From contig JAOUBJ010000024.1 in NCBI GenBank assembly GCA_029860345.1, forward strand, positions 1-37,115: a DNA stretch of 37,115 nt, read 5' to 3'. A program made the position numbers and the translations under genes. This document shows positions 6,910 to 36,944 of this stretch, piece by piece. How positions within the stretch are numbered: the first letter of the stretch is position 1; every line of letters begins with the position of its first letter. The stretch comes from Candidatus Zixiibacteriota bacterium (GTDB lineage: Bacteria; Zixibacteria; MSB-5A5; GN15; FEB-12). The notes under the pieces were generated by a model that was not told where the DNA came from, did not search any database, and worked only from the letters and a program-made list of their open reading frames with translations.

Positions 6910-7965
6910 ATGGAAGATAAACGCAAAGAAAAAACAATCAAGCTGACCGCCCAGGTCAGTTGCGCCGGTTGAGCTTCAAAGATCCCGCCAAAGTTTTTGG
7001 CTCAGACACTTGAAGGACTCCCGGAACAGTCGCACCCTGATATGATAGTGGGATTCAACCAGGCCGATGATGCCGGTGTTTTTCGACTTAACGAACAGCA
7101 GGCGCTGGTGCAGACTGTCGATTTCTTTCCGCCGATAGTCGATGATCCGTATCAGTTCGGACAGATAGCGGCCGCTAATGCGTTGTCGGATGTCTATGCC
7201 ATGGGGGGGCGGCCATTGACCGGATTGAACATTGTCGCTTTTCCTATGGGCACCCTGCCGGACGACTATCTGAGGGAAATACTTCGGGGCGGTGGTGACA
7301 AAGTTGCCGAAGCCGGCGCCGTGATTGTCGGCGGTCACTCGATCAAGGACAAGGAACTTAAGTACGGCGTCGCCGTGACCGGTGTCATTGATCCACAGCG
7401 AGTCGTTACCAACGGCGGCGCTCAACCCGGTGATCGGCTGTTTCTCACCAAGCCGCTCGGCACCGGACTGATCACTACCGCGATCAAGCGCGGCGCAGCG
7501 CCTGAGGCGCTGGAAAAGATTGTCGCAACCCAAATGGCCCAGTTAAACAAAGGACCGGCCGAACTGATGGTGAAACACAACTGTCATGCTGCAACCGACA
7601 TCACCGGCTACGGTTTGTTGGGTCACGCTCTTGAGATGGCGATAGCATCGGACGTGACCGTGCACCTGGATTCAGCCCTGATACCATTGATGCCGCAAGC
7701 TCTGGAATTGGCCGAGGCCGGGATGATCCCCGGCGGCGCCGGGGCAAATCGGGAGTTTGTCATCGACCAGGTTTCAATCGCCGCCTCCGTTGCGTTTAAT
7801 CTAAAAGCAGTGCTGTACGACCCACAGACTTCCGGTGGCCTGTTGATAGCGCTGCCTCCGAAGGACGCCGATGCTTTCGCCATAGAGCTTGAACGCACCG
7901 GCCAGTTCGGATGGATGATCGGTACTATCGATCCGTACAGGACCCACAGGATCGTGGTCGACTAA
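6910..7965 (+). CDS. selD: Selenide, water dikinase SelD, itself a selenoprotein (Sec21 encoded by UGA)
   Basis: Makes selenophosphate from selenide and ATP, the selenium donor for Sec-tRNA and other selenium modifications. The frame runs from ATG 6910 through an in-frame TGA at 6970-6972 and on to TAA, giving 351 residues including Sec21, normal SelD length. The context SCAG-U-ASKIPPK aligns with the E. coli SelD active site (Cys17 and Lys20), placing Sec at Cys17 and Lys24 at the essential lysine. Further SelD features include FNQADDAGVF, TVDFFPPIVDDPYQFGQIAAAN (in two parts), GGHSIKD, TDITGYGLLGHA and PQTSGGLL. Read without recoding, a gene caller would start at a TTG (6997) and lose the catalytic loop. 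A bacterial SECIS-like hairpin follows the UGA. The ribosome-binding site is weak (GAAGG). Confidence 0.94.
6974..7015 (+). promoter_or_regulatory. SECIS element of selD
   Basis: An upper stem GCCAAA (6987-6992) with TTTGGC (6996-7001) closes a GTT loop (6993-6995). A lower stem CTTCAA (6974-6979) with TTGAAG (7010-7015) is separated by an internal loop of 7-8 nt. The loop GU starts 20 nt after the UGA, within the range known for bacterial SECIS elements recognised by SelB. Confidence 0.8.
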
Positions 7966-35210: not shown

Positions 35211-35265
35211 GAGATAACACACACCACCCCCAAACCGCGTTCGAGGGTGCCACCCGGCGAAGAAC

Positions 35266-35820
35266 CTACGCCCCCTCCAGCTCAATACCGAGTGCATCAG
35301 CCAGGCGGTTGACATAGTTGAAATATGCGGCTACCTGTACTACATCGTGAATCATCTGTTCGGTCAGACCGCCAAGCTTGAGACTCTCGATATATTCCTG
35401 CGTGGTGGTGTGTGCCCCCAAGGTGACCTTGTCAACGAACTTCAAGATGAGTTGGTTCAGTTCGCCTACCTTTGCCGACACCGCGTCACTTGCCAGTTTA
35501 GCTTTGAGATCATCATCGACGATAAGATCACCGTCGCTGCCGAGGGACCGCAACGCGGCCCAATGATGTTCTACTCAGTAGTGGCACTTATTGATCGCCG
35601 ATACCCGCACCGCAATCATCTCGCGCTGCTGCCGGGTCAAGGAGGTTTTCCCCATAGTTACGGCACGAAAAAGTTCGACATGGTATTTCATCGCAGTCGG
35701 ATTGTGGGCTGCAATCCGAATGATATTGGCCGGCGTGCGGCTCGGTCCGCCGTATTCGCGGTAGAGCGCCTGCAATTCTTCAGATGCATCGTCGTATGGG
35801 ATGTAGTCAATAAACGCCAC
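35266..35820 (-). CDS. AhpD-like (carboxymuconolactone decarboxylase family) selenoprotein with CxxU motif
   Basis: A 184-residue peroxidase-related protein interrupted by an in-frame TGA at 35575-35577 (codon 82). The first part ends AVRVSAINKCHY and the second continues VEHHWAALRSLG in the same frame, restoring the AhpD signature CxxCxxHH as C79-H-Y-U82-V-E-H-H. Sec replaces the second cysteine, the proposed peroxidatic one in mycobacterial AhpD. Total length fits the peroxidase-related CMD family; each half alone does not. The start is a GTG with AAAGGAG six bases upstream. A SECIS-like hairpin follows the UGA. It probably reduces peroxides or thiols in the cytoplasm. It lies 108 bp downstream of an alpha/beta hydrolase-like gene on the same strand. 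Confidence 0.93.
35545..35561 (-). promoter_or_regulatory. SECIS element of the AhpD-like gene
   Basis: In the mRNA GGGCCGC pairs with GCGGUCC (7 bp, one G-U) around a GUU loop (35552-35554). The loop starts exactly 20 nt after the UGA, the same distance and loop sequence as in selD. Confidence 0.8.
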
Positions 35821-35928
35821 CTGGTACTCCTTTACCGGCTGGTTACGGTCGGATCACACGTGCTGGTATCTCAGTCGCAATTGTTCGGAACTCCGGAAGC
35901 CGGTAGACCCACGATCTTTCTGTCGAGG

Positions 35929-36843
35929 CTATTCCCGGGTCACAAAAGTCCAGACCCGATCAGCCACAGAGCTTTCCTGGCCGGACAGGGTCGCCGACTC
36001 CACCTTCAACAGTTCATCCGAGGATAACTCCTGCAGTATGACAACCTCGGGATCATCACCGCTCTCGCTTCCGGTCAAAAGCAGAGTTTGACAGGCCACT
36101 GCTTCTACCGCCTCGATCTCACGATAGGGCGCCGCATAGCCCGAACGAATGCCGTACCACCACCACATCATGGTGTAGTAGAACGGGAACCAGTAAGTAT
36201 CGTGCCGATCCTTGAGCATACGCAGCATCCGTTCGGAGGTCAGATATGGATTCACGGCCATCACCTTGTCTATCCGCGCATCCTCTCGCGCGACAAGTAT
36301 GGCGGCGTCGCCGCCGAGACCAAAACCGACAATGGCGAGCGGGTGGTGGATTTTCTTTCGCAGATCGAGCCAACGAATAACCTCTTCGAGATCGGTCGCC
36401 TCATACTGTCCCTCGCCGTGGTACTGGCCGGTGGATCGCCCGGCAGCACGCTGGTCATAGGCTACTACCGAGTACCCGGCAGTGGACATTTGGCGAGCCA
36501 ACGACAGCATGCTGTCGCGATCGGCATTATCGTGGTGCAGAAAGAAAACCGTTCCCAGGATTGAGTCGTGAACGGCCGAGTCCGGCAACACATACAGGCA
36601 GGCCAGAGTGGTCAGACCGTCGGCCTCCACAGTAAAACTGTCGGCAATCAGCCCGGAATCGATCCAGGCCGCAGGGTCGTTTATTTCCAGCGAGTCCTCG
36701 TAATAATCGTCGACATTGTCCCGCCCCATGACAGCTTTGGTGCGATTGAGGGGATAAATAACATAGGTCACAAACAAGAGCGCCGCTACCAGGACGAAAA
36801 TGACCATGTTAATGATTTCTCTGGTCTGCTTCGATAGTTTCAT
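35929..36843 (-). CDS. Membrane-anchored alpha/beta hydrolase-fold protein lacking the catalytic Ser
   Basis: A 304-residue protein. Residues 10-30 (INMVIFVLVAALLFVTYVIY) form an N-terminal membrane anchor, with the fold outside or facing the periplasm. The hydrolase fold is clear: FFLHHDNADRDSM, YSVVAYDQRAAGRSTG and the elbow AIVGFGLGGDAA. The elbow normally reads GxSxG; here the Ser is Gly (codon GGT). No His is seen at the usual C-terminal position (LSGQESSVADRVW). It is therefore probably a pseudo-hydrolase. The ATG at 36843 is preferred because GGAGAGG precedes it, over a TTG four codons earlier. It lies upstream of the AhpD-like selenoprotein on the same strand. Confidence 0.82.
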   Translation of the reverse strand: MKLSKQTREIINMVIFVLVAALLFVTYVIYPLNRTKAVMGRDNVDDYYEDSLEINDPAAWIDSGLIADSFTVEADGLTTLACLYVLPDSAVHDSILGTVFFLHHDNADRDSMLSLARQMSTAGYSVVAYDQRAAGRSTGQYHGEGQYEATDLEEVIRWLDLRKKIHHPLAIVGFGLGGDAAILVAREDARIDKVMAVNPYLTSERMLRMLKDRHDTYWFPFYYTMMWWWYGIRSGYAAPYREIEAVEAVACQTLLLTGSESGDDPEVVILQELSSDELLKVESATLSGQESSVADRVWTFVTRE

Positions 36844-36944
36844 CGACCTCTCCAACTTTACGCCAAGGTTAGCCGACGCACGACGGGCTCATGTGGCTAA
36901 TCAATCAACCACCTTGAGCCGTGCGTATCCGTTCACAAGTCGGT

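Follow-up and report, generated by a model that had tools for sequence, protein, structure and literature searches.

Two short reading frames on the minus strand of the window, which is the whole 37,115-nucleotide stretch of Candidatus Zixiibacteriota DNA analysed here, are separated by a single TGA. Do they represent two gene pieces, or one gene in which the TGA encodes selenocysteine (Sec), and if the latter, what reaction might its product carry out?

One reading frame across an in-frame TGA

The frame is open on the minus strand from a GTG start (35820–35818) to a TAG stop (35268–35266), defining a gene of 184 residues at 35266–35820. A Shine-Dalgarno-like AAAGGAG, a strong match, lies 5′ of the start at 35827–35833, and a terminator-like hairpin of 11 pairs lies 3′ of the gene at 35225–35249, a type of site that is no more numerous in this region than in shuffled sequences. 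Standard ORF calling returns two pieces, one of 81 codons with the GTG start (35575–35820) and one of 95 codons whose first start is TTG (35266–35553). The initial annotation, which described two minus-strand frames in one phase parted by a single TGA and split by conventional calling, is correct on both counts. Reading through the TGA at 35577–35575 produces the motif NKCHY-U-VEHHW, placing Sec82 at the second position of a CxxC active site, with Cys79 (TGC, 35584–35586) as the presumed resolving cysteine of CxxU. A cysteine occupies the residue 82 column in all three of the printed alignments with solved AhpD-like relatives, as had been predicted from the joining of NKCHY and VEHHW around a Sec at the second active-site Cys. 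The CxxCxxHH pattern proposed for the site is likewise present, with the refinement that the catalytic histidine is the one at +4 from Sec (His86; compare Cys133 and His137 of AhpD).

The joined product scores 108.1 bits against the NCBIfam model TIGR01926 (cut-off 81.8) over residues 7–179, across the TGA, and 51.4 bits against Pfam CMD (cut-off 23). Because the joined product passes TIGR01926 across the TGA, and because the TGA column is common to relatives, the split frame does not arise by chance. The suggestion that the fused length fits the peroxidase-related CMD family holds as well. An AlphaFold2 model (pLDDT 92, pTM 0.87) is all-helical and AhpD-like, and its best PDB matches, at a TM of about 0.8, are 3c1l, 2pfx, 6k40, 2prr and 2oyo, which are also close solved relatives. 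These proteins share the fold, length, CxxC site and His at +4, but are 23–28% identical and carry Cys where the window protein has Sec. The model matches PA0269-type AhpD and the debrominase Bmp8 at a query-normalised TM of 0.65–0.70, and a profile built from 25 relatives also matches PA0269 (2o4d) and Mycobacterium tuberculosis AhpD (1gu9). By TIGR01926 score, its core of Glu, CxxU and His at +4, and predicted fold, the protein is a TIGR01926 member, which may also have the thiol-dependent peroxidase activity of that family. Two other AhpD-related models with Sec members score the joined product far below their cut-offs (NF041238 AhpD_rel_CFYUT, 76.5 bits against 175; NF053654 GroundWater_YciW, 26.2 bits against 310), and the gene therefore lies outside both.

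Taken together, the locus almost certainly encodes a selenoprotein that belongs to the peroxidase-related AhpD-like family. The first AhpD-like selenoproteins with CxxU were described in 2005 from the Sargasso Sea, with 27 sequences assigned to COG2128 (PMC1088965); 299 AhpD-like 1 selenoproteins were counted in the GOS data (PMC2398784), and a 2026 review lists an AhpD-like CxxU selenoprotein under TIGR01926 (PMC13188914). The gene consequently belongs to a known selenoprotein family and does not extend the list of such families. It resembles the Sargasso Sea and GOS proteins, as they are described, in family, in a CxxU motif with Sec second and in a downstream bacterial SECIS; those sequences come from marine reads, whereas the present gene comes from a candidate phylum. 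Among named sequences, its nearest relative, at 69% identity, comes from a Candidatus Zixiibacteriota MAG (JAJRTA010000240.1). What is new here is the candidate-phylum host, the covariation of the SECIS and the gene neighbourhoods of the relatives. Since standard-code gene calling splits or truncates the gene, annotations of this phylum can easily overlook a conserved redox enzyme.

The catalytic site and its likely reaction

Glu67, Cys79, Tyr81, the Sec/Cys82 column and His86 are invariant in 25 aligned sequences. The catalytic set of AhpD comprises Glu118, Cys130, His132, Cys133 and His137, and that of Pseudomonas aeruginosa PA0269 comprises Glu36, Cys48, Tyr50, Cys51 and His55; PA0269, with Tyr at the position of AhpD His132, catalyses a weak thiol-dependent reduction of H2O2 (PMC3141380). 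The residues of the window protein match the PA0269 (2O4D) set in both spacing and Tyr (Glu, Cys at +12, Tyr at +14, Cys or Sec at +15, His at +19), while PA0269 is shorter, about 20% identical, and has its second Cys where the window protein has Sec. The spacing of Glu118, Cys130, Cys133 and His137 in M. tuberculosis AhpD (1gu9/1knc) is also retained; in that protein, however, the motif belongs to the C-terminal half of a chain that is arranged differently, and its His132 and Cys133 correspond to Tyr and Sec in the window protein.

The most plausible working of the gene and its product is as follows. SelB and Sec-tRNA-Sec would decode the UGA as Sec by means of a hairpin 13 nt downstream; without Sec decoding, translation would end at residue 81. 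The product would be an all-helical CMD-fold protein in which Sec82 replaces the second catalytic cysteine (Cys133 in M. tuberculosis AhpD, Cys51 in PA0269). Most likely, Sec82 would attack a hydroperoxide or other electrophilic substrate, Cys79 would resolve it to form a selenenyl-sulfide, and a cellular thiol donor would re-reduce this bond, with Glu67, Tyr81 and His86 serving as the putative proton relay. General selenoenzyme chemistry suggests that the Sec form may be more reactive than the Cys form. The analysis shows the gene structure, the family, the predicted fold, the Sec machinery, the conserved TGA and the covariation of the SECIS; we infer Sec insertion in the cell, the peroxidase activity, the substrate and the electron donor, and on balance we lean towards peroxidase activity as the main reaction.

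The weak H2O2 reduction by PA0269, which has the same Tyr, counts against this reading. Peroxide may also not be the substrate, because the fold and family include the debrominase Bmp8. A real Sec protein could instead use its CxxU in another redox step, such as reductive dehalogenation, as Bmp8 does, or thiol-disulfide exchange as a peroxiredoxin adaptor. Bmp8 (6ohi/6ohj) matches in both profile and fold, AhpD acts as an adaptor for AhpC in the described systems (PMC3141380), and most solved TIGR01926-type proteins carry the name "uncharacterized". The Bmp8 match is nevertheless the weaker one, with a TM of 0.66–0.70 and 16–17% identity, compared with a TM of about 0.8 for the peroxidase-related proteins, and flavodiiron-type or NADPH-FMN reductase genes adjoin several relatives in a setting that resembles oxidative-stress defence. 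We regard this non-peroxidase alternative as possible, though rather unlikely.

The neighbourhoods vary in composition. The gene that precedes the Sec gene in the window, on the same strand, encodes an alpha/beta hydrolase (35929–36855, minus strand); such a gene is also upstream in six relatives and is a possible operon partner of the Sec gene. In seven other relatives (L027, L028, L029, L030, L034, L036 and L044), the upstream same-strand genes form one other cluster, termed flavodiiron-type from the ODP beta-lactamase and flavodoxin domains found in the two members tested (L027 and L028), the other five being grouped by BLAST. Related ECF sigma factor genes lie beside the Sec gene in L031, L038 and L045; in L045 a zf-HC2 (anti-sigma-like) gene comes next, and L038 has a short gene related to it. 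The downstream gene in L041 and L042 belongs to an NADPH-FMN reductase group (domain tested in L041). Such neighbourhoods fit oxidative-stress defence, with partners that vary by lineage.

Conservation of the TGA and of the hairpin that follows it

When 132 genomes of the phylum are searched in six frames, 34 contain a relative at E < 1e-10; one internal TGA is present in 29 copies from 28 genomes, among them the genome of the window. In a codon alignment, the TGA falls in the same column in 27 of 27 TGA copies, always with Cys at −3; two copies outside this alignment (L053 and L054) read HYU by eye. The initial annotation had pointed to homologues with a true stop at this position as evidence against Sec, and among close homologues none but TGA is seen there. 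Three more distant relatives that were examined carry the Cys codons TGT, TGT and TGC in the TGA column. Together, the 29 Sec copies and the Cys relatives within one phylum provide a clean case for testing the advantage of Sec in an AhpD-like enzyme. One match, in genome G072, runs over a TAA; the protein there is another AhpD-core one, its CQYC motif is intact, and the TAA falls beyond the limits of its gene. Comparison of the window copy with its closest relative gives pN/pS values of 0.20/0.69 before the TGA and 0.21/0.65 after it; as judged from these sequences, purifying selection acts with equal strength on either side of the TGA.

The candidate bSECIS hairpin at 35561–35545 on the minus strand starts 13 nt after the UGA and consists of a 7-bp stem, GGGCCGC/GCGGUCC, with a GUU apical loop. 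It lies within the 35500–35580 interval where an SECIS-like hairpin had been anticipated. The published bSECIS model calls for an apical loop of 3–9 nt with a G as its first or second nucleotide, commonly with G or U next, at a distance of 16–37 nt from the UGA (PMC13188914); the predicted hairpin, with a UGA-to-loop distance of 20 nt, agrees with this model. Because the folding energy of the lone hairpin is unremarkable (z = −0.49 for the single window sequence), we use covariation among relatives as the SECIS evidence. Across 21 copies, 99.3% of stem cells are paired, compared with 87.0% in shuffles, and 15 cells show double changes, compared with 3.8 in shuffles; the shuffles ignore kinship, and the count is one of cells rather than of independent changes. 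Sliding the partner strand by 1–3 columns lowers pairing to 42–56%, and the GUU loop is present in all 21 copies. In four more distant Sec copies (L043 and L045–L047), the hairpin has moved by a few bases and keeps a G in the loop, and L041 and L042 have a 7-bp stem with a loop that lacks the G of the model. No comparable hairpin is found in the Cys copies.

The stem overlies the codons for W-A-A-L-R-S, and residue pairs covary there: Ala, Thr or Ser with Arg, and Asn or Asp with His. In L036, Asn occurs together with Arg, but Arg is encoded by CGT, so that pairing with AAC is kept; this suggests a coupling in the RNA rather than in the protein. Within the family, the covarying stem provides good evidence for an SECIS located inside a coding region. 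A broader and distinctly tentative reading, which we consider doubtful, is that the Sec AhpD-like protein removes peroxide beside a flavodiiron-type protein that is encoded next to it in several members and reduces O2, and that the SECIS stem shapes the protein near the active site; residue pairs there would covary because the stem RNA must pair.

Selenocysteine machinery and other candidate Sec genes of the genome

The initial annotation had named a lack of selA, selB or selC in the genome as evidence against Sec. All are present above curated cut-offs: selA (505.9 bits) adjoins selB (307.1 bits), and tRNA-Sec scores 69.4 bits. The single selD of the genome (378 bits), encoding selenophosphate synthetase, lies within the window itself at 6940–7965 on the plus strand and has an in-frame TGA at its catalytic Sec/Cys position, within the motif SCAGUASK. 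This selD is likely a Sec gene in its own right, and its standard ORF call begins past the TGA (6997). Across the phylum, selA is found in 25 of 28 genomes with the TGA gene and in 92 of 104 without it (117 of 132 overall; Fisher p = 1.0), and its presence is uninformative at this scale because nearly all genomes have it. One relative has, unlike all others listed, a selA frame with a single internal TGA (G058:C64:9741-11075), for which a sequencing error is a possible cause.

An ordinary Cys gene could also have become a pseudogene through a nonsense mutation, or been misread in sequencing; either requires only one base change from TGT or TGC to TGA, but the same TGA recurs in 28 genomes, is followed by an intact and constrained frame with a retained SECIS, and is accompanied by the full Sec machinery, making this explanation highly improbable. 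Genome-wide use of UGA as a sense codon under another genetic code would likewise open the frame, yet it is scarcely credible when no stop interrupts the genome's own selA, selB and other elongation-factor matches, the TGA of both the AhpD-like gene and selD falls exactly at the redox-active position, tRNA-Sec, SelA and SelB are present, and some relatives of the AhpD-like gene (L038, L041, L045 and L048) end with TGA as their stop codon.

Two further AhpD-like genes with an in-frame TGA occur in the same genome, both on the minus strand. One (L003/L057, G000:C4:11759-12433) is a second TIGR01926 member (99.8 bits); its TGA occupies the second redox position and may be followed by a hairpin, its first Cys is absent (GGAPU), and it has no close relative among the 132 phylum genomes. 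It could be a form with Sec alone, a decayed gene or one that was acquired. The other (L002, G000:C12:39596-39877) is a third, shorter AhpD-core frame that scores slightly below the TIGR01926 cut-off at 75.3 bits; with a CHYU motif and a hairpin, TTCCGC-GGT-GCGGAA, after its TGA, it is likely a further Sec protein.
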